Origin: Qingshengfaniella alkalisoli
Lineage (GTDB): Bacteria > Pseudomonadota > Alphaproteobacteria > Rhodobacterales > Rhodobacteraceae
DNA: 64,000 bases
Direction: 5' to 3'
Assembly: GCF_007855645.1 (NCBI RefSeq)
Contig: NZ_CP042261.1
Span: 1,755,501 to 1,819,500 of the forward strand
Below, in pieces: positions 53,259 through 63,904 of this stretch (position 1 is the first letter of the stretch; every line of letters begins with the position of its first letter). The position numbers and the translations under genes are program-made. The notes below the pieces were generated by a model that was not told the DNA's origin, searched no databases, and worked only from the letters and a program-made list of their open reading frames with translations.

Positions 53259-54062
53259 CTACAGCCCGAAACGCGCGAAGCTGGCACGTTCCTCGATCAC
53301 ATCCGCTGCGTCATGCAGAAGGCCAACGCCGAATCTGGACAAGAGCCCTTTTCTGGGACCGAAGCGGTTGAAGCGGATCTTTTCGCCGAATCGCTCTTTC
53401 ATTACCGGTTGCAGATGTCCGACGCTGTCCACAAGCCCCAACTCAAGCGCCTTGCCGCCGAGCCAGAAGCTGCCATCGAACAACTCTTCGGCCTTCGACA
53501 GTTTCGCTCCACGCCGCTTCGTAACCTGCTCTTTGAAACGGTCGTGCATGTCAGCAAGGATTGTGTTCAGCCGTTCGATATCTTCGGGCTTTTCCGGACG
53601 GAACGGGTCCAGAATACTCTTGGACTTACCGGCGGTGTGAACGCGCCGTTCGATGCCGTGGCGGGTGATGAACTCGTGCGCCCCGAAACCCGCCGAGATC
53701 ACGCCTATGGAGCCGACAATCGAACAACCATCGACGAAAATCTCATCCGCTGCAGTCGCCAGCCAATAGCCACCGGATGCAGCCACGTCTTCCACGAAGG
53801 CGATGACGGGGATGTTCTTTTCCTCTGCCATCCTGCGGATGCGCGCAGCGATCAAGGAGGACTGGACTGGACTGCCGCCAGGCGAATTGATCGACAGCGC
53901 TACGGCAGAGGGCTTGCCTTTGGTGAAGGCCTTCTCGATCAGCGGCGCGAGGGTCGCGTCATTCAAAGATGAACCGCTGCGGGCTTGCGAGGCGATAACA
54001 CCTTGCAATCGCAGAACAGAAACGACGGGGTGCTTTCGCTTGAACGGGAACCTGATCTCCAT
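53259..54062 (-). CDS. S49 family signal peptide peptidase (SppA-like)
   Basis: The 267-residue protein has the S49 core: SINSPGGSPVQS, DVAASGGYWLATAADEIF with nucleophile Ser96, GSIGVI and the general base Lys at about 148 (HTAGKSKSILDPFRPEKPED). Short single-domain form like alphaproteobacterial SohB/SppA. It has no clear N-terminal membrane anchor from this ATG. It degrades signal peptides or membrane protein fragments. First gene of a four-gene run. Confidence 0.88.
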   Translation of the reverse strand: MEIRFPFKRKHPVVSVLRLQGVIASQARSGSSLNDATLAPLIEKAFTKGKPSAVALSINSPGGSPVQSSLIAARIRRMAEEKNIPVIAFVEDVAASGGYWLATAADEIFVDGCSIVGSIGVISAGFGAHEFITRHGIERRVHTAGKSKSILDPFRPEKPEDIERLNTILADMHDRFKEQVTKRRGAKLSKAEELFDGSFWLGGKALELGLVDSVGHLQPVMKERFGEKIRFNRFGPRKGLLSRFGVGLLHDAADVIEERASFARFGL

Positions 54063-54120
54063 CCGCTTGACATAGACCGCCCCCTCCGCCGCAACAAGTC
54101 CATCGCCGCGGAGAAACAAG

Positions 54121-54146
54121 AAAAAGCCCCACCATCGGCGGGGCTT
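54121..54146 (-). terminator. Terminator downstream of the decayed spike base gene
   Basis: On the minus strand AGCCCCGCC pairs with GGTGGGGCT (one G-U) around GAT, followed by TTTTTCTTG. It lies just after the stop of the frameshifted gene at 54154-54388 and before sppA. Confidence 0.8.
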
Positions 54147-54153
54147 CGTGACT

Positions 54154-54388
54154 TCACTTCCCGGTTCGAGCTACCAGAGAGCAACCGGTCGTGCTGCTGG
54201 CCAGCACCCTGCGCACAGGGACCGGATAGTTAGCCCGCCCTGCATATTGGCAAGGGTCAGAGTCTGACCATCGAACATCTCAACTGCAACATCGCCTGTT
54301 CCGCCGACATAAAAGGCACGCGGCAACTGCGGCAACGGTTGAGCATCATCGGGAACGATCGGCTTGCCGGGTGAAATTTGTCCTTCAT
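54154..54388 (-). pseudogene. Frameshifted gene resembling GTA spike base protein (RCAP_rcc01079 family)
   Basis: Three successive minus-strand frames read as one protein of about 78 residues: MKDKFHP from ATG 54388; then GKPIVPDDAQPLPQLPRAFY, VGGTGDVAVEMFDGQTLTLA and NMQGG; then NYPVPVRRVLASSTTGCSLV and ARTGK, stopping at 54154. The centre (RAFYVGGTGDVAVEMFDG) and end (VRRVLASSTT) fit my memory of the spike base proteins linked to Rhodobacterales gene transfer agents. Two single-base losses, near 54370 and near 54240, would explain the shifts. A good terminator follows. It may be a real pseudogene or carry sequencing errors. Confidence 0.6.
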
Positions 54389-54500
54389 GACATCTACCAC
54401 ACACATATTCCGTGCAAAATCCGCCCGATGCCGCTTGACAGATCCCTGCCGGTCCGTGCGCACTGTGGACAGGAACGCAACAGCCATTCACGCCTACGCC

Positions 54501-56174
54501 ATGAAGAAGATCTTTCTCTCGATTTGTCTGGCTGTCTCAGCGCAAGCCGCGTTGGCTCAATCGACACTCACCCCGTGGGAATCCGCCCCGCCGCTTCCGA
54601 TCGTCGATGGTGTCGCTCCCGTAACGCCCGAGAACACCAAGAAACTGCCCTCCGGCAACGCTCTGGCCGTTTCTCTGAGCCCAGACAAGACTCGTGTGAA
54701 CAAAAGCATCGTCGGACCAAAAGACGATTCACCCGAGGCAGGCCTGATCCGCAGGCTTTACCGTCAAGGACGGGCAGCAGGGCTGGCGGGCGTGCTTTAC
54801 GACAATCGTGACCGGAAGCATTCCAACCTTGGTGACGATATCTTTCCGCAGATCAGCCGAACCGAATACGCGGAACCCTTTAAAAGATCGGGTCTCGATT
54901 ACTCGATCGGTGGGCGCCTGATCTTTTCACTGCCGACGTTCGGGAACTCGTCAACAGTGCTTCGCGGCCCAGGCATTGCCAGATCCCTGGGAAGGGCCGG
55001 TTCGACCAGCCAACAAACGGCCATGTCGGCCTATCGCCTTTACAGGTCCAACCATATCTATGTTTATCCGGAACATCGCGACCACGACTCCGAGGCCGGC
55101 GACAAGTTCTCGGCGATCACGCCCTACCAAATTGTTTCGCAGGGTTCGTCCGGGTCGGATCGACCGTTCCTGCGTGCGATAGGGTTGGCCATCGCTGGGC
55201 TGACACCGGACACGCGCAACCGGCTGGAGGCCGAACGGCTTCTTGCGCCGACGGTTCAAATGTTGCTGCGACGCACGATGAGAGGCATCAATTCGCGGGA
55301 TGATTACCTGTCGGGGCGCGCACATCGCTCGGCTTATGACGGGAAGGACATTCGGCCCGCGGCGTTGGTCACATTGGCGAATTCGCTTTCACCCGAAATG
55401 ATCCCCCCGATGGTTCAACTGAGGGTAACAAGGGACTTTCAGGCTGTTCCAGGCAGGGACTACCTCGCGAGAAACCTCGACGAGGCGCTGTTCACAACCC
55501 CTTCCGCTATTGGGCGGACATGGCGTTCCTACGACTATCGGCGCGAAATCGAGGTATCCGTGGCGGACACACGTGACCCGAACGGCTTGCCGCTGTCCTT
55601 CGATTGGGTGATCTTACGTGGAAATCCCGAAAAGATCCGCTTTACCTATGCCAGCACACGTCGTGACAGGGCGACCATCCGGATAGATTGGCACGACGCC
55701 TTCACCACGCCCTACGACCCCGACATGCTGACCAACCGCGTGGATATCGGCATCTTCGCAAACAACGGTCACGTCGATAGCGCCCCGGCAATTCTGTCAG
55801 TTGCCTTCCCATTATTTCAAGACCGCCACTATGAACCCACGCCCAACGGGCCACGATTGCAGCGCATAGGCTACGCCGCAGATGACCAGACTTTTCTCGA
55901 CCCGCTGCTATGGCCGACAGCAAAGTGGACGGACCACTTGAACTATGACGACTCTGGAAGACTGGATCGCATACGGCGCGAACTGCCCAACGGAGTAACG
56001 AAACTATTCCGCCCCGGCGAAGCCTCGCTCTACGACATCAGTGATGGCACCTCGGCGCAAGGTGGCACCGCCGTCACCCACATCGCCGCGCGGGGCAACG
56101 GCGGTTCACTGAAACTGCAAATGTCGGAAACGGCGGAAAGCCTGTTCCCGGACGGGCCGGATAGCGATCAGTAA
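54501..56174 (+). CDS. Large secreted protein of unknown function
   Basis: The 557-residue protein has a signal peptide (MKKIFLSICLAVSAQAALA). An N-terminal region (65-260) holds the distinctive string AGVLYDNRDRKHSNL, GLDYSIGGRLIF, GNSSTVLRGPG, HIYVYPEHRDHD and SQGSSGSDRPFL. The middle (375-480) is Ig-like (SVADTRDPNGLPLSFDWVIL). The C-terminus is Gly/Ser-rich. I have seen similar sequence in other phyla as hypothetical proteins. Its Asp/His-rich loops could bind metal. It converges on the BY-kinase gene with a 7-base overlap. ATG 54501 precedes the signal peptide; no strong Shine-Dalgarno is seen. Confidence 0.75.
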   Translation: MKKIFLSICLAVSAQAALAQSTLTPWESAPPLPIVDGVAPVTPENTKKLPSGNALAVSLSPDKTRVNKSIVGPKDDSPEAGLIRRLYRQGRAAGLAGVLYDNRDRKHSNLGDDIFPQISRTEYAEPFKRSGLDYSIGGRLIFSLPTFGNSSTVLRGPGIARSLGRAGSTSQQTAMSAYRLYRSNHIYVYPEHRDHDSEAGDKFSAITPYQIVSQGSSGSDRPFLRAIGLAIAGLTPDTRNRLEAERLLAPTVQMLLRRTMRGINSRDDYLSGRAHRSAYDGKDIRPAALVTLANSLSPEMIPPMVQLRVTRDFQAVPGRDYLARNLDEALFTTPSAIGRTWRSYDYRREIEVSVADTRDPNGLPLSFDWVILRGNPEKIRFTYASTRRDRATIRIDWHDAFTTPYDPDMLTNRVDIGIFANNGHVDSAPAILSVAFPLFQDRHYEPTPNGPRLQRIGYAADDQTFLDPLLWPTAKWTDHLNYDDSGRLDRIRRELPNGVTKLFRPGEASLYDISDGTSAQGGTAVTHIAARGNGGSLKLQMSETAESLFPDGPDSDQ

Positions 56175-57007
56175 TATCCGTAGTCGTATCCATAGCCGCC
56201 GGATGAATAACGGCACTTGTTCAGCACAACGCCCAGCACTTGAGTAACCTCGGCGATCTCTGCCTCGGCAACATCCACCTGCTCGACCGAGGTCGTTTCC
56301 GCTGCTGCCACCAGCACGGTTGCATCTACGTGCTCGAGAAATCCGATGGTGTCGTCACTGACCATAAGGGGCGATGTGTCGAAGATGATGAGATCGGGCT
56401 CGTAATCCTTTTCAATCCTTCGCAACGCGTCCTGCGCCGCCCCGCTTTGCAACAACTCTGACGAATTCCCGCTAGGAATGTCGTTCGTGCCAAATGCCAC
56501 ATTTCCACCATAGCTTACCAGATGGTCTGCAATCGCGTCCTGACCCGTCAGCACCCGTGCAAAAACATGCTTTTCTGTTGACCCGATCAGCTTTGAGAGC
56601 ATCGGACGGCGCATATCGGTTTCGATCACTATAGTACGTATGTCCGTCTGCCGCGCGAGGCTGAATGCGAGATTCGCCACAAGCGTCGACTTCCCGCAAC
56701 CCGGGGTCGGCGATGTTACAGCAATACGCCGCCAGTTGTTCGCACGGGCCTGCTGCACGATTTTTGTCCGCATCATGTCGAAGGGCGAAGATTCCTGACG
56801 CCCAAAATATGTAACGATCCGGTTTGCTTCCATTACCTTGGGATCGACTGCGAGCTCCGGCAATGCTGCCCAGCGATCCGACACAGCACGAGGCAAGGCA
56901 CGGCCGGATATTTCCTGATTTCTTGGTTGCCGCTTGACCGCGGGTTCCCGCAGTTTACCACTGCGCTTCTGGCGGGCCCGGTTCATCGCATCTTGAAGAC
57001 GTTCCAT
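56168..57007 (-). CDS. Bacterial tyrosine kinase (BY-kinase, CpsD/CapB-like) of EPS locus
   Basis: The 279-residue cytoplasmic kinase has Walker A SPTPGCGKST (99-108), Walker A' VIETDMRRP and Walker B LIIFDTSPL. It ends in a tyrosine cluster with Tyr at 272, 274, 276, 278 and 279 for autophosphorylation. It is encoded apart from its membrane activator, the chain-length protein just upstream (44 bases). It corresponds to the tyrosine autokinase of exosortase-associated EPS loci and controls polymer length and export. Confidence 0.92.
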   Translation of the reverse strand: MERLQDAMNRARQKRSGKLREPAVKRQPRNQEISGRALPRAVSDRWAALPELAVDPKVMEANRIVTYFGRQESSPFDMMRTKIVQQARANNWRRIAVTSPTPGCGKSTLVANLAFSLARQTDIRTIVIETDMRRPMLSKLIGSTEKHVFARVLTGQDAIADHLVSYGGNVAFGTNDIPSGNSSELLQSGAAQDALRRIEKDYEPDLIIFDTSPLMVSDDTIGFLEHVDATVLVAAAETTSVEQVDVAEAEIAEVTQVLGVVLNKCRYSSGGYGYDYGYY

Positions 57008-57050: not shown

Positions 57051-58598
57051 TCACGATCCGAGCAACGAAAAGCCGAACTTGTTGAGCGCTTTCTCAATCA
57101 ACTCATCCAATGGGAATACATAGGAATGGATCATGAACAACGCCACAGGTAACAACAGGAGTAACACAGCAGCTATCACCAAAGAACTCCAGCGTTTGCG
57201 ACTGGTTTCTGCAGAGGTCGGAACATAGGGCAGCACAGCGATCGGGGTGATACCCAGCTTGTCGGTCAGTTCGATAGGCCGCCGAATCGCTTTGTTCAGA
57301 AGCTCGAGCAGCAGAATAAGACCCAGCCCCGCCGCGATCCCGGCACCGACGCCCGCTGCGGCGATTGCTGCGCGGTTCGGTTTGGTCGGAGTTGTAGGCA
57401 CCGTCGCCTGCTCGATTACGGTGATACGCTGGCCTTGTGACGTCGCCTCAATCCGCTCTCCGGTTTCCGCCTGCGACAAACGCGCACTGGCAGAATTGTA
57501 CCGCAGCTGGATATTCTCGTAATCCCGCTCCAGTGCCTCCAGCTCAATACCGTTCTTCGGAAGCTCCGCTAGCAGCCCGTTAATGCGGGTGAGTTCTGCT
57601 TCATTCGTTTCTTTCAAATCCCGCAAGGCATCCAGCCGCGTGTCGATTTCCGCGACCTGTGCGTCAAGCAGTGTGCGTTTGCCATCCGATGACGAGGCGC
57701 CGCTGCTTTCGAACTGTTGTTCGAGTTGACCGATCCGAGCCTCCAGCATCTTCACGCGTGGATGATTCGCAGAGTAGACCAGCAATGCCTCATCCAGTTG
57801 TGAGCGTGCCGCATTAAGCGCGCGTTCCTCGGGCGAAAGTTGAGATTCGTCCACGCTTAGCCGGCCCGTCTGTTCGAATATCTCGATCAGCCTAACTTTC
57901 TGGTCGTTCAGAATGCCCATTTCCCGGTCGATCTGCCCCAGGGTGCTGGACACGCTGGATTGCCGATCACGAAGATACGACTCATCCTGAGGTAGCGCTT
58001 GAGCGTGGGCACTTTTGAAGGCCAGGATCTCATCGGACTTGGTGTTAAGTTCGGCGCTCAGACGGTTCACTTCCTGTCGAAAGAAATCGAGGGTCGACGC
58101 AGCCTGGTTCGTGCGCATTTCCACATTTGATTGAAGGACACGAGTAACAAGCTCGTTTGCAACCGCCGCAGCAGCCGTTGCTGACGAAGCGCGAAAGGAA
58201 ATGCCTAGCAACGTCGCCGCGTCACGTCCGGATTGCCGTTGGAACCGAGTGCGTGCACGCATGCTGTCCACGATTTCAGTTGCGGAGGCCGGCGACCCGG
58301 TTTCTGAACTGCTTTCGAACACATCCAGTTCACGGGCAATTTCCAGAAGGTTCGCACGCGTCATCAGCCGCTGTTCAATGATCTGAAGCTGCTCCTGCGG
58401 ATTGGTTCGCACGGTCGAACTGGCAAGTTCATCTGGAATCTGGGGGGATTCCACAAGTAAACGCGCGTTGGCCTCATATTCCGGCGGCAGGACCATCGCT
58501 GTCACAAATCCAAGGCACGTGAACAAGGATACGACAGCGATGAAGTATGGGAACCGCCGCCAGAAGATCGACGTGTAATAGTTCAGATCAAAATTCAT
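57051..58598 (-). CDS. Polysaccharide chain-length determinant (Wzz/GumC-like, exosortase locus type)
   Basis: The 515-residue protein has an N-terminal membrane helix (YFIAVVSLFTCLGFVTAMVL), a Wzz domain, a long coiled coil (about 150-390), a membrane pair near residues 400-425 (AAIAAAGVGAGIAAGLGLILLLELL) and a final helix near 470-490. It lacks a C-terminal kinase domain, which is encoded by the next gene. It is the inner-membrane co-polymerase that activates the BY-kinase. ATG 58598 follows GTGGAA. Confidence 0.9.
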   Translation of the reverse strand: MNFDLNYYTSIFWRRFPYFIAVVSLFTCLGFVTAMVLPPEYEANARLLVESPQIPDELASSTVRTNPQEQLQIIEQRLMTRANLLEIARELDVFESSSETGSPASATEIVDSMRARTRFQRQSGRDAATLLGISFRASSATAAAAVANELVTRVLQSNVEMRTNQAASTLDFFRQEVNRLSAELNTKSDEILAFKSAHAQALPQDESYLRDRQSSVSSTLGQIDREMGILNDQKVRLIEIFEQTGRLSVDESQLSPEERALNAARSQLDEALLVYSANHPRVKMLEARIGQLEQQFESSGASSSDGKRTLLDAQVAEIDTRLDALRDLKETNEAELTRINGLLAELPKNGIELEALERDYENIQLRYNSASARLSQAETGERIEATSQGQRITVIEQATVPTTPTKPNRAAIAAAGVGAGIAAGLGLILLLELLNKAIRRPIELTDKLGITPIAVLPYVPTSAETSRKRWSSLVIAAVLLLLLPVALFMIHSYVFPLDELIEKALNKFGFSLLGS

Positions 58599-58599
58599 T

Positions 58600-59457
58600 C
58601 TATGCGATTCCACTTTCTGAAACGCCGCCGACGAATACGCCATCTCTTAATACGGCTGACACCGTATCTGCTGTAACCACGCTTTCATCCGCTGAAAATG
58701 CATATACCAGTGCGAGATCGCACAGTTTGTTAACAAGGCGAGGAATACCCCCCGTCGCGCGATAAATCAGATCGGACGTATCAGCCTGAAATTCTTCGCC
58801 AGATCCGCCAGCAACCCTTAACCGGTGGGCAACATACTCTGCGACACCGTCACGATCCATTGGCGACAGATGGAAACTTGCCCCGACGCGTTGTGCGAAC
58901 TGCCTGAGCTGAGGGCTGTCAATCAGATCACGCAACTCCGGCTGTCCCATAAGGATCAGTTGAACCAACTCATCCTTATTGGCGTTGATATTCGTCAGCA
59001 TGCGCAGCTCTTCGAGCGTCTCGACATTCAGGTTCTGCGCCTCATCAATGATCAAGACGACGCGATGGCCCTCGGAATAGGCCTCGATCAAGAAGTCCTG
59101 TAATTGCTGAAACAGCTGGACGTAGCTGGCTTGCGGGTCAAAGCTGACACCCAGTGAATGCAGCACCCATTGCAGCAACTCGCCACGCGATCCCTGTGCA
59201 TTCGAAATCAACCCGACGATCACGTCCTCGGACATGGACGATAGCATATGATGTAGCAACGTTGTCTTGCCCGCACCAACCTCACCGGTAATAACGGTGA
59301 TAGGTGTTCGGGTCATCACACCATATTCCAGCATGGTAAAGGCCAGCCTATGTGCACGCGACCAATAGAGGAACTCCGGATCCGGCACTAAAGTGAACGG
59401 GCGCTCGGCAAACCCAAAGAACGAGTTGTAGATATCTATCGGGCTTGTGGTATTCAT
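58600..59457 (-). CDS. AAA ATPase of EPS/exosortase locus (ExeA-like)
   Basis: The 285-residue ATPase has Walker A GEVGAGKT (58-65), Walker B VVLIIDEAQNL, sensor NINANKDELVQLILMGQPELR and a lid with YRATGGIPRLVNKLCDLAL. The opening FFGFAERPFTLVPDPEFLYWSRAH is typical of ExeA-like/XrtA-associated ATPases. Its role is likely energising or regulating assembly of the export complex. Its stop is 1 base from the start of the chain-length gene. Confidence 0.9.
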   Translation of the reverse strand: MNTTSPIDIYNSFFGFAERPFTLVPDPEFLYWSRAHRLAFTMLEYGVMTRTPITVITGEVGAGKTTLLHHMLSSMSEDVIVGLISNAQGSRGELLQWVLHSLGVSFDPQASYVQLFQQLQDFLIEAYSEGHRVVLIIDEAQNLNVETLEELRMLTNINANKDELVQLILMGQPELRDLIDSPQLRQFAQRVGASFHLSPMDRDGVAEYVAHRLRVAGGSGEEFQADTSDLIYRATGGIPRLVNKLCDLALVYAFSADESVVTADTVSAVLRDGVFVGGVSESGIA

Positions 59458-59906
59458 ATTCCGATCTGGGCAGTATTCATGTCTGCCGGACTCTCCAACT
59501 GGCACATTCTGCCGCGCACCGGCACCGGATACGGGCAGCAACTACACGCGCGCCCTATCACAACGACTGAAACAGCTAAAGCACAAGGCGACCCCATGCT
59601 ACCATTACTTGTGCAACGGCAGCACATAATCGGGAGCCTGTGCAAAGTTGTCGCAGCGTCCCACAAACCATGCACGCCATAACGTGCGGATTTCCGCTCC
59701 GGACGCCGCGACACAAAAAATTCATTGGTTACGCGCGGTTGGCAATATTAATCAAAAAGCATGAAAATCTTGAACGATGTTGAAATGACGCAACGCAATG
59801 TGCTAACAGTGACTCGGCGTTCATCAGTTTGTTGTGATGGCGCGTGTGTAATCTCGAGTATATGCAGCCCATATTTTTCGGGCTGTGGTTATGTGAGGTA
59901 AGTGTT
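59458..59906. other. Divergent intergenic region of the EPS locus
   Basis: About 450 bases separate the ATPase and sugar transferase genes. The right half (59715-59830) is AT-rich for this genome and is the likely promoter zone for both directions. At about 59865-59885 CAGCCC and GGGCTG form a 6-bp hairpin. Short open frames here have no coding character. No regulator site was recognised. Confidence 0.4.
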
Positions 59907-60578
59907 TTGACTGCTCATTTTTCAACCTCGGCCGAGGCTTCTAGCCCTGTGTCCGGGGCAGATTCCCGGCATTCTGTTTATCGGAAGATCGGCAAGCGTG
60001 CTCTCGATATACTCTTTGTTGTTTTCGTTTCCCCACTACTGATCCCGGCGATTCTATTGCTTGCGCTCTGCGTTGCGCTGGATGGAGGCAATCCCTTCTA
60101 TATTCAGCGTCGCATAGGCCGAAACGGCAAAGAATTCCGAATGGTGAAGCTGCGTTCCATGACCGTGAACGCCGAAGAAAAGCTGATCAGTTATCTGGCC
60201 AGCAACCCTGAGGCCAATCGTGAATGGGCCCTCACTCAGAAGCTGCGGGATGACCCCCGTATTACCAGACTGGGTCGTTTGATGCGTAAGACCTCGCTCG
60301 ACGAACTTCCTCAGTTCTGGAATGTGCTGAAGGGCGACATGAGTGTCGTTGGCCCTCGACCGATGATGGTTGCTCAGCGTGACCTGTACCCCGGCCAGTG
60401 CTATTTCGCGTTACGGCCCGGGATTACGGGATACTGGCAGGTCGGTGATCGCAACAACACCTCTTTCGCGGCCCGCGCACGGTTCGATTCCGATTACTAC
60501 AACGATATTTCGTTCGCGACAGATACGCGTGTCATCGCAAGAACGCTTGGTGTCGTATTTCAGGGAACCGGCATCTAA
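59907..60578 (+). CDS. Undecaprenyl-phosphate sugar transferase (EPS priming)
   Basis: The protein has about 223 residues with a single membrane segment (KIGKRALDILFVVFVSPLLIPAILLLALCVAL), then the bacterial sugar transferase domain: GGNPFYIQRRIGRNGKEFRMVKLRSM, DDPRITRLGRLMRKTSLDELPQFWNVLKGDMSVVGPRP and RPGITGYWQVGDRN. It starts EPS synthesis by moving a sugar-1-phosphate to the lipid carrier. TTG 59907 is preferred because GAGG lies 8 bases upstream; ATG 59862 would include a hairpin region. Confidence 0.88.
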   Translation: MTAHFSTSAEASSPVSGADSRHSVYRKIGKRALDILFVVFVSPLLIPAILLLALCVALDGGNPFYIQRRIGRNGKEFRMVKLRSMTVNAEEKLISYLASNPEANREWALTQKLRDDPRITRLGRLMRKTSLDELPQFWNVLKGDMSVVGPRPMMVAQRDLYPGQCYFALRPGITGYWQVGDRNNTSFAARARFDSDYYNDISFATDTRVIARTLGVVFQGTGI

Positions 60579-60701: not shown

Positions 60702-63164
60702 ATGACCCTCAAGAAGTTCACGATTGCGGCCCTTCTTTCGCTATCCGTCGCCGGTTTGGCCGGCTGCGAATCTTCGGATAAGAAAGCAGAACGCCTTTAT
60801 CAGGAAAGCGTCGAGCTTGCAGAAGAGGGTCAGGTAGAGAAGGCTATCGTCAATCTGAAATCGGTTTTTGATCTGAACGGCCAGCATGAAGCCGCACGGA
60901 TGCTTTATGCCGACCTGAATCGGGGGAAAGGCGACCTGCAAGAGGCCTATCGCCACTATCTTCTGCTGACTGAACAGTATCCAGAGAACCTTGATGCGCG
61001 CATCAAGCTCGCGGAAATGGCGATGCCAATCGGCGAATGGGAAGAGGTCAAGCGCCACGCAACTGCGGCCGCAAAGATGGCACCAGACAACGCTACCGTT
61101 CGTGCCATACTGAACGCCACTAGGTATCGCGATCTATCCACCGGAACAGCCGATCCACAGGAACTGCAGGCGGTTGTGGATGACGCCAAACTCCTGTCGG
61201 ATAAGAATCCGGAGGACCTGATTTCACGTCGTATCCTGATAGACTACTATTCACGACAGGGGGAATTCGATCAGGCGCTGGTCGTTCTGGATGATGCCCT
61301 GGCTCTTGAGCCCGATAATGCCGATCTGAACCGAGCCAAGCTCAGTTTGCTCGTTCAAAGTGACAATCTGGCGGGGCTGGGCGATCAGTTGAAAACGATG
61401 GTTGCTCGGTTCCCTGACGACGCTGAATCACGCTCGGCACTGGTGCGGTGGTATCTGATCCAGAACGATATTGACGGTGCGGAACAATTCATCCGCGACC
61501 TCGTAGAAGATGGGGGTGACGATATCCCCCCGCGCGTTTCGCTCGTCCAGTTCCTGCAATCGGTCCGAGGCCCGGAGGCTGCACTCGCGGAAATCGACAA
61601 ACAGATCAGTGAAGGCGTCGACAGCGCTTTGTTCCGGTCGTTACGTGCAAGTATCTGGTTCGATCAGGGGAAGCGCGACAATGCCATCGCCGAAATGGAA
61701 AGCATTCTGGACGGTGCCGAAACGAATGACCAGACGAACAACCTGAAAGTGACTCTGGCCCGCATGCAGCTGGCCGTCGGCGACGAGACCGCTGCGGATG
61801 CGCTGATCTCCGACGTTCTTGAAGCCGACGCCCAGAACGTGGGGGCGCTCAAGGTGCGCGCTGATCGGTTGATCGAACAGGACAAAGTACGTGACGCGGT
61901 CTTAGCCCTTCGTACCGCGCTGGACCAGGATCCGGATGATGTCGAAGCACTGACATTGCTTGCCAAAGCCTACGAGCGTGACGGGAACCGAGAGCTTGTG
62001 GGGGAAAGCCTGTCGCTTGCCGTCGATGCCTCAAAGAACGCACCTGAAGAAAGTCTGCGATACGCCGAGTTTCTGAAGGCGGATGAGCACTTCGTTCGCG
62101 CCGAGACGGTCCTGATCAACGCGCTGCAACTCGCTCCGGCCAATGTCGGCGTGCTGCGCTCCCTGGGCCAGACCTATCTGCAAATGGAGGACTGGTCGCG
62201 CGCGCGGCAGGTGTCGGAAACATTGAGGAATCTGAAAAACCAAGAGGCCACAGCAGTGGCTTCCGCGCTGGACGATGCCATCCTTCAATCCACCGGAGAT
62301 TCTGAGGAAAGCATCTCCCTGCTACAATCGCTGGTCGCTGAGGGTTCTGCCGGCACCGCGGCACGCGCGGAAGTCGTTCGCCGCCATCTCGCCAGGAATG
62401 ATTTGGAAGCCGCCCGGTCCTATATGGATCAATCACTGGCGGAAACAGACGACCCTGATGCCAAGCGCGATCTGCAATACCTCAACGCCGCCTTGCTGAG
62501 CGTCGAGGGAAACCCGGATGGCGCCGAAGCTATCTACCGCGACCTGTTGGCACAAAATGATCAGGCCGAAGCGGTGTGGCGGAGCCTTGCTCTGCTTAAG
62601 ATCAATCGCGGCCAATTGGATGAGGCGCAGCAGATTGTCACGGACGGCATCGCGGCCAACGAGAATTCTGCCACGTTGAAATGGCTTGACGCCAGCCTTG
62701 CCGAACGCACCGGTGACTATGACCGCGCCATCGCGATCTACGAGGATCTTTATGCTGCGGATTCAGGCTCTGCATTGATCGCCAACAACCTCGCCAGCAT
62801 GATCACCACTTACTACGACGATCAGGAACATCTGGAACGTGCATTCGTCGTGGCCCGCCGCCTGCGCGGCACGGATGTGCCCGCTTTTCAGGACACCTAT
62901 GGCTGGATCGCGTTCCGCCTGGGCAACATAGACGAGGCCCTGGAATATCTGGAATCCGCAGCCGAAGGCATGCCCAGAAATCCATCCGTGCAGTATCATC
63001 TGGGCAAGGTTTACGCGGCCAAGGGACGTACCGACGAAGCTCGCAACCAATTTGAACGGGCCGTTGAGCTTTGGGGCGACACCGACGTTCCGGAAGCTCA
63101 AGACGCACGCCAGCAGCTAACATCGCCCGAGCCAGCGCCGGAAGCGAAGAGCAAACAGCAGTAA
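60702..63164 (+). CDS. TPR-repeat lipoprotein of PEP-CTERM/EPS system (PrsT-like)
   Basis: The 820-residue protein has a lipobox LAGC (Cys22) and then some 18 tetratricopeptide-like repeats over its whole length (for example AERLYQESVELAEEGQVEKAIVNLK, AQNVGALKVRADRLIEQDKVRDAV, NPSVQYHLGKVYAAKGRTDEARNQFERAV). Length, lipidation and context fit the TPR lipoprotein of exosortase/PEP-CTERM loci. It should scaffold EPS export at the periplasmic face of a membrane. First gene after the sugar transferase terminator. Confidence 0.88.
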   Translation: MTLKKFTIAALLSLSVAGLAGCESSDKKAERLYQESVELAEEGQVEKAIVNLKSVFDLNGQHEAARMLYADLNRGKGDLQEAYRHYLLLTEQYPENLDARIKLAEMAMPIGEWEEVKRHATAAAKMAPDNATVRAILNATRYRDLSTGTADPQELQAVVDDAKLLSDKNPEDLISRRILIDYYSRQGEFDQALVVLDDALALEPDNADLNRAKLSLLVQSDNLAGLGDQLKTMVARFPDDAESRSALVRWYLIQNDIDGAEQFIRDLVEDGGDDIPPRVSLVQFLQSVRGPEAALAEIDKQISEGVDSALFRSLRASIWFDQGKRDNAIAEMESILDGAETNDQTNNLKVTLARMQLAVGDETAADALISDVLEADAQNVGALKVRADRLIEQDKVRDAVLALRTALDQDPDDVEALTLLAKAYERDGNRELVGESLSLAVDASKNAPEESLRYAEFLKADEHFVRAETVLINALQLAPANVGVLRSLGQTYLQMEDWSRARQVSETLRNLKNQEATAVASALDDAILQSTGDSEESISLLQSLVAEGSAGTAARAEVVRRHLARNDLEAARSYMDQSLAETDDPDAKRDLQYLNAALLSVEGNPDGAEAIYRDLLAQNDQAEAVWRSLALLKINRGQLDEAQQIVTDGIAANENSATLKWLDASLAERTGDYDRAIAIYEDLYAADSGSALIANNLASMITTYYDDQEHLERAFVVARRLRGTDVPAFQDTYGWIAFRLGNIDEALEYLESAAEGMPRNPSVQYHLGKVYAAKGRTDEARNQFERAVELWGDTDVPEAQDARQQLTSPEPAPEAKSKQQ

Positions 63165-63307
63165 GCTGCATCTGTTGCAGGGAAAATACGTGTCTGCTGA
63201 AAAACACCTCTTCGGTGCCATCACGCTTCCAGCAAGGCTTGGAGTTGGACTAGTCTGTGTTCAAAGCCAGTGACAATGGCGTCCAAGAGACAACGAGGAA
63301 CAGGTTT

Positions 63308-63904
63308 ATGCGTATTCTTCTAGGTATTTTCGCCCTGCTGATGTCCGTTGGCATCGCCGCCGCGCAAGGCTATTCGATCAAATCCGGCGACGTTCTGACG
63401 GTCGAGGTGCTTGAGGATTCAAGCCTGAACCGCAACGTCCTCGTCCTGCCCGACGGCAGTTTTTCCTTTCCCTATGCGGGCACGGTCAGCGCGGGCGGAC
63501 GGACGCTCGATCAAGTCCAAGCCAACCTGCGTACTGCGCTAGCACCGAATTTCGCGACCACGCCCACCGTGTTCGTCTCTCTGAACCAACTCGCGCCGGC
63601 CACCGCAACTGGCGAAGTTCAGGCAGATCTGGTTACTGTCTACTTCCTGGGTGAAGTGCAGAGCCCCGGCCCGAAGCAGTTCGAACCCGGTATCAGCTTC
63701 CTGCAGGCACTCTCTGGCGCCGGGGGGTTCACCGCTTTCGCTGCGCAAAAGCGCGTCCAGCTGCGCCGCACGGATCAATCGGGACAGGAACATGTGTACA
63801 AGTTCAACCTTCGCGCAATCGGCGATGGCGCCACAATCGGCGGCAACACCACCTTGCGGGACGGTGACGTCATTCTGGTGCCCGAGCGCCGTCTGTTCGA
63901 GTAA
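63308..63904 (+). CDS. Polysaccharide export protein (Wza-like)
   Basis: The 198-residue protein has a signal peptide (MRILLGIFALLMSVGIAAA), a poly-export domain (YSIKSGDVLTVEVLEDSSLNRNVLVLPDGSFSFPYAGTVSAGGRTLDQVQ) and a SLBB-like region (VYFLGEVQSPGPKQFEPGISFLQALSGAGGFTAFA). No lipobox Cys, and a shorter form than Wza. It forms the periplasmic part of the export channel. ATG 63308, with GAGG upstream. Confidence 0.92.
   Translation: MRILLGIFALLMSVGIAAAQGYSIKSGDVLTVEVLEDSSLNRNVLVLPDGSFSFPYAGTVSAGGRTLDQVQANLRTALAPNFATTPTVFVSLNQLAPATATGEVQADLVTVYFLGEVQSPGPKQFEPGISFLQALSGAGGFTAFAAQKRVQLRRTDQSGQEHVYKFNLRAIGDGATIGGNTTLRDGDVILVPERRLFE

Follow-up and report, generated by a model that had tools for sequence, protein, structure and literature searches.

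A probable pseudogene of a gene transfer agent head spike base beside an exopolysaccharide export cluster in Qingshengfaniella alkalisoli

The window analyzed here is a stretch of 64,000 nucleotides (C1:1755501-1819500) from the genome of Qingshengfaniella alkalisoli, which consists of 3.93 Mb in five contigs. The locus of interest lies near the 3' end of the window, where the remains of a short gene on the minus strand are flanked on one side by a hairpin and a peptidase gene and on the other side by a set of genes for exopolysaccharide production and export. The features of the locus are as follows (positions are those of the window; L107 is the stretch around the spike base of the nearest relative, genome G118).

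53259-54119, minus strand: sppA (peptidase S49; PF01343), the next gene downstream of the relic, at the place where L107 has a fibre-like gene
54123-54147, minus strand: terminator-like hairpin directly after the relic, with 11 pairs and a T-rich tail
54154-54388, minus strand: probable relic of a gene transfer agent (GTA) head spike base gene (RCAP_Rcc01079 family), in three reading frames; NF048002 at 63.4 bits when joined; its sister is the intact base of L107
54157-54231 including the first codon, minus strand: C-terminal piece of the spike base, in another frame, with YPVPVRRVLASSTTGCSLVARTGK; stop codon at 54156-54154
54234-54374, minus strand: core piece of the spike base, with SPGKPIVPDDAQPLPQLPRAFYVGGTGDVAVEMFDGQTLTLANMQGG, within the ORF 54171-54491
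54374-54388, minus strand: putative N-terminal remnant MKDKF, with about 11 arm residues missing behind it; the common start of the family is M, then D-x-F
54501-56174, plus strand: P598, a divergent conserved gene; the mechanical ORF is 54378-56174 (598 aa, from a TTG at 54378) and the ATG at 54501 is the chosen start
56168-57007, minus strand: exopolysaccharide tyrosine autokinase (TIGR03018 and TIGR01007, both below cut-off)
57051-58643, minus strand: polysaccharide chain-length determinant (PF02706; TIGR03007 below cut-off)
58600-59541, minus strand: ATPase of the XrtA-system type (TIGR03015 below cut-off; PF13401)
59844-60578, plus strand: initiating sugar transferase (PF02397)
60702-63164, plus strand: PrsT-like TPR lipoprotein (TIGR02917 below cut-off; TPR families)
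63257-63904, plus strand: polysaccharide export protein of the Wza type (PF02563 and SLBB)

Read in order, the three frames of the relic give MKDKF, then a core containing RAFYVGGTGDVAVEMFDG, then a tail containing VRRVLASSTT. An earlier note on this DNA had proposed, from the sequence itself, that three minus-strand frames join here into a spike base protein and had called for a profile search of the joined protein. Translation of the frames and the search both confirm the proposal: the joined read-through matches the NCBIfam model NF048002 (spike base protein, RCAP_Rcc01079 family) with 63.4 bits against a cut-off of 28, which supports the family assignment. The accompanying statement that no single open frame holds the gene is true of the whole protein, which needs all three frames, but not of the domain core, which is carried by one ORF (54171-54491; 106 aa, GTG start) that reaches 46.1 bits on its own (E 4.5e-12; cut-off 28). 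A second profile, built from the frames of 28 relatives, was compared with all 1,877 segments of a six-frame translation of the window. The core piece ranks first (7e-14) and the C-terminal piece, at model positions 80-104 as expected, ranks second (E = 0.0015), with the two in the expected order; the segment ranked third has an E of 3. This profile leans somewhat to the relic, its relatives having been found via the joined protein, a bias that NF048002 does not have. Judged by these scores, a chance match can be regarded as excluded for the core piece and would be unlikely for the tail piece. The five residues MKDKF are too short for a test of their own, and their assignment is suggested by their place and by the common start of the family.

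The relic also matches PHROG 12296, labelled tail fiber protein, and a Pfam search with it gave no match. In a single-sequence search the solved Rcc01079 chain was the top hit, with a weak E of 0.13 and residues 11-72 of 77 aligned. Rcc01079 (GhsA) of the Rhodobacter capsulatus RcGTA (PDB 6tb9/6tba/6tsu/6tui) belongs to the same NF048002 family and likewise lies off the main cluster and beside polysaccharide genes; unlike it, the relic is spread over three frames, has a shortened arm and is without a fibre gene. By score the sequence belongs to NF048002, but it does not form a single reading frame of about 85 residues that includes the whole N-terminal arm. With three frames and an arm that is 11 residues short, it is therefore a relic of the family and not a working member.

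To place the relic among its relatives, we compared the surroundings of 16 spike bases, in stretches of 9 to 12 kb that were hand-picked from profile hits. P598 or the exopolysaccharide kinase is present in five of them (L107, L108, L110, L111 and L112), and L117 and L120 contain other genes of the exopolysaccharide cluster; in the remaining nine of the 16 stretches neither P598 nor any gene of the window's exopolysaccharide cluster was found. P598 itself, which matches nothing in Pfam or NCBIfam, has homologues near a spike base in L107 (47%) and L112 (49%), and homologues of the autokinase lie within the 12-kb stretches L107, L108, L110 and L111. The closest parallel is G118. Its base (L107:6072-6332, minus strand) is sister to the relic in the tree (support 90/87, in a tree of only 86 columns), is the best relative by identity (51% over 74 columns) and stands in the same eight-gene order as in the window: base (minus), P598 (plus), kinase (minus), chain length (minus), ATPase (minus), sugar transferase (plus), PrsT (plus) and Wza (plus). 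It differs from the relic in that its frame is open and is directly followed by a 1,385-aa ORF beginning MIGISLG, which has no Pfam match and is probably the fibre. Another informative relative is the solo base of G140 (L112:6142-6402, minus strand), which shares with the relic the lack of an adjoining fibre, a divergent P598 and, behind the stop, a hairpin-like repeat and T-rich tail, but whose reading frame is intact. Of the 33 distinct loci counted, which are the places with a fetched locus, 22 carry an ORF of at least 100 aa whose start lies within -14 to +1 of the stop of the base. The other 11 are without such an ORF (L009, L011, L012, L014, L019, L021, L033, L034, L036, L038 and L040), and their bases may form knobs that carry no fibre or may pair with a fibre encoded elsewhere.

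The neighbourhood of the relic appears similar to capsule-linked spike loci, with what would here be an export cluster of the XrtA type (the NCBIfam matches to the XrtA system are below cut-off). The available text of PMC10218006 describes known head spike genes as adjoining capsule genes. As in a ghsA-ghsB locus, the neighbours of the relic are genes for capsule or exopolysaccharide, and the main GTA cluster lies elsewhere; the fibre gene that would stand directly behind the base is not there, and the hairpin and sppA take its place.

A second damaged spike base was seen in another genus, at L160:318-704 (G115:C15). The model match there stays in one frame but skips from position 64 to position 79, and so an internal piece is missing. 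G115 has two spike base loci, the further and more distant match lying at L161:3732-4001 (G115:C56; reverse-strand count).

On the downstream side, the earlier note had taken a good terminator behind the relic as a sign that the gene was once an independent unit. The hairpin pattern is present, in a scan that finds six such sites in 4 kb (3.9 are expected from shuffles). The independent unit is unsupported: the base of the nearest relative is directly followed by a fibre-like gene. By eye, hairpin-like repeats with T-rich stretches also stand behind the intact solo bases of L112 and L110. With 22 of the 33 loci carrying an ORF behind the base and 11 lacking one, the hairpin is no proof that the gene once stood alone, and the base may have passed through a fibre-less stage before it decayed. 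In 57 sppA loci, several of them shortened by contig ends, a search at E up to 1 found no spike base, and apart from weak TPR matches in six these loci contain none of the window's exopolysaccharide-side genes. Relatives of the window's putative uvrC, SDR and CaCA genes occur in 43, 41 and 38 of them. Because sppA in these loci is found without a spike base or the exopolysaccharide side, the 3' end of the relic is probably a rearrangement junction, and the rearrangement may have removed the fibre.

We looked for the fibre elsewhere in the genome by two routes. A search with the fibre-like ORF of L107, at E up to 0.001, gave no match in the genome. The other route was a DNA pattern for M-[ILMVF]-[GA]-[LF]-G, a weak tool that fits one of 22 fibre-like starts of relatives and does not fit that of L107; it gave 42 sites in the genome (24 forward and 18 reverse, vs 7 and 11 in a reversed control). 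The sites were read by eye, for 30 of them those 20 whose frames reach 60 aa or more, and then the other 12; none was accepted as a fibre start and several are permease-like. As fibres are diverse and both searches are weak, a fibre elsewhere in the genome could have been missed. The pseudogene reading does not depend on this pattern, since its basis is the base itself and the site behind it.

The relic is the sole spike base match of the genome: no second one was found with NF048002 at E up to 0.01 or with a model of 14 intact relatives at E up to 10. The genome does contain a full-looking structural cluster of the RcGTA type, with terminase, portal, HK97 capsid, tail proteins and megatron, at about C1:819352-834109. 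The 18 genes labelled in it are open frames, with putative identities given by their position. Eight GTA proteins were scanned against NCBIfam; portal, HK97 capsid, major tail protein, distal tail protein, hub and megatron exceed their cut-offs, and the terminase, a putative one by its position, and the DUF2793 gene have no match. GTA_TIM and DUF2793 are matched in the genome by Pfam, and the open DUF2793 gene, which we take to be the mark of a tail fibre in a GTA cluster, adjoins the megatron gene. The G118 stretch used for comparison ends inside the capsid gene and so covers 13 of the 18 genes, counted from that gene on, all of which align to it. The search that the earlier note had advised, for an intact spike gene and a GTA cluster elsewhere in the genome, has thus returned the cluster and no second base. 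Its expectation that the spike gene stands apart from the main cluster also holds (relic at C1:1.81 Mb, cluster at C1:0.82-0.83 Mb), in agreement with the available text of PMC6209664 and PMC10218006, which places head spike genes off the main GTA cluster.

The lesions themselves bear on whether the gene is truly broken. From the conserved F to the conserved R column the arm spans 19 residues in the relic. In the 37 relatives compared the same distance is 30, save for one relative with 31, and the first lesion therefore deletes part of the arm besides shifting the frame. It is no bare frameshift, as had been supposed earlier. The second lesion is a frame change alone and falls at about 54226-54236, slightly below the 54235-54245 first given for it. 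Two frame changes within about 78 codons, in a genus of which this genome is the single one in our search, could be taken to mean that a live spike base gene has been broken in appearance by sequencing or assembly error. We think this very unlikely. A shortfall of 11 residues in an arm of near-constant length is atypical of read errors, no run of more than three identical bases occurs at either junction, and the fibre gene behind the relic is missing as well. In nine of the 11 neighbouring genes (ATPase and Wza uncovered), no sense-strand two-frame case was found in 9,858 bases, at a depth of 1 to 41 queries per gene (on the exopolysaccharide side, one or two queries for four of the five covered genes and three for the other). 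A broader control with 615 ORFs of at least 150 aa from 73 loci, of which 206 had matches in the window over 13,145 bases, flagged nine two-frame pairs, all of them opposite the gene strand and from antisense ORFs. The 13 GTA genes of the same genome likewise read in one frame each against G118. Since the neighbours are free of sense-strand frameshifts and these 13 genes are in single frames, read error is unlikely, and the relic is most likely a real pseudogene, as far as a single genome of the genus can tell. Of the two alternatives offered at the outset, spike loss and sequencing error, loss fits the data and error, given the 11-residue arm loss and 9.9 kb of neighbouring sequence free of frameshifts, fits poorly. 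We give hardly any credence to the idea that a shortened or recoded protein is still produced and used. The 106-aa ORF does carry the core at 46 bits, but it lacks both the arm of the family, whose spacing is identical in 36 of 37 relatives, and the C-terminal part, and programmed frameshifting would have to bridge both frame changes.

A different question is whether the pseudogene, if it is one, ever belonged to a GTA. The family is also phage-borne, as PHROG 12296 attests, and rcc01079 itself has been matched to phage RcapNL according to the available text of PMC8601537, so that the relic might be of prophage origin and never have been part of a GTA. Capsule genes adjoin the known head spike genes (PMC10218006, in the text available), which speaks against this. 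So do the surroundings of the base of G118, where the exopolysaccharide genes of the window recur in unchanged order. None of the eight scanned neighbours in the window matches a phage family; the genes farther on the sppA side, whose names are putative, lie outside that scan. We consider a prophage origin unlikely; the genes of the relatives would presumably serve their GTA rather than a phage.

We also asked how common spike bases are in the family, using 149 genomes drawn from it, incomplete genomes included. NF048002 was matched in 47 of the 149 (46 over the cut-off, the relic being counted) and GTA_TIM in 129, of which 84 are without a spike base match. A spike match occurs in 45 of the 129 genomes with GTA_TIM vs 2 of the 20 without it (Fisher p = 0.036, with the relic and a weak hit in G054 counted as positive); in this test GTA_TIM stands in for the GTA cluster and kinship is ignored, and we use it only for the commonness of absence. 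The hit in G054, which is below the cut-off, was rejected as a spike base, lying inside a frame of 416 residues. By this model most genomes with GTA_TIM in the sample thus show no spike base, and its loss, or its divergence past the model, is frequent.

Taken as a pseudogene of a GTA gene, the relic is very probably ghsA, which encodes the head spike base in the GTA of Rhodobacterales, still at its ancestral place beside the exopolysaccharide export cluster. The best reading is that the spike locus was inherited vertically, that its fibre was lost and its base decayed, and that a would-be spikeless GTA was left. The nearest relative carries an intact base and a fibre-like ORF beside the same exopolysaccharide genes; for the lineage of the window, in which the main GTA cluster is kept, loss of the capsule-binding head spikes is likely. 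According to the available text of PMC7296036, five copies of the base form a jelly-roll knob in RcGTA, gripping the capsid with the N-terminal arm and holding one flexible fibre that serves attachment to the recipient's capsule. No working base should be producible from the relic; particles of the otherwise complete-looking GTA cluster would then be without head spikes, and recipients would be reached without the capsule-binding step, through tail parts. Fibre loss may have preceded decay of the base, perhaps through a rearrangement that brought sppA beside it.

It is possible, though we put it forward tentatively and with less than even confidence, that the spike locus and the exopolysaccharide cluster are co-inherited in the family, linking a receptor with its receptor-binding protein, and that here the spike half has decayed while the other half and the GTA cluster are intact, making a natural spikeless GTA. 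Under such linked inheritance the intact solo bases, as knobs that carry no fibre, would represent an intermediate. In the available text of the literature on GTA head spikes we found no decayed spike base described before; tspA, a different accessory gene of GTAs, has been lost in some species according to the available text of a preprint (PMC13420450). As an instance of gene loss, the locus is modest but clean. A recognizable broken base and an intact-looking cluster, beside a relative with base and fibre, would make a natural test of how important head spikes are outside Rhodobacter capsulatus.
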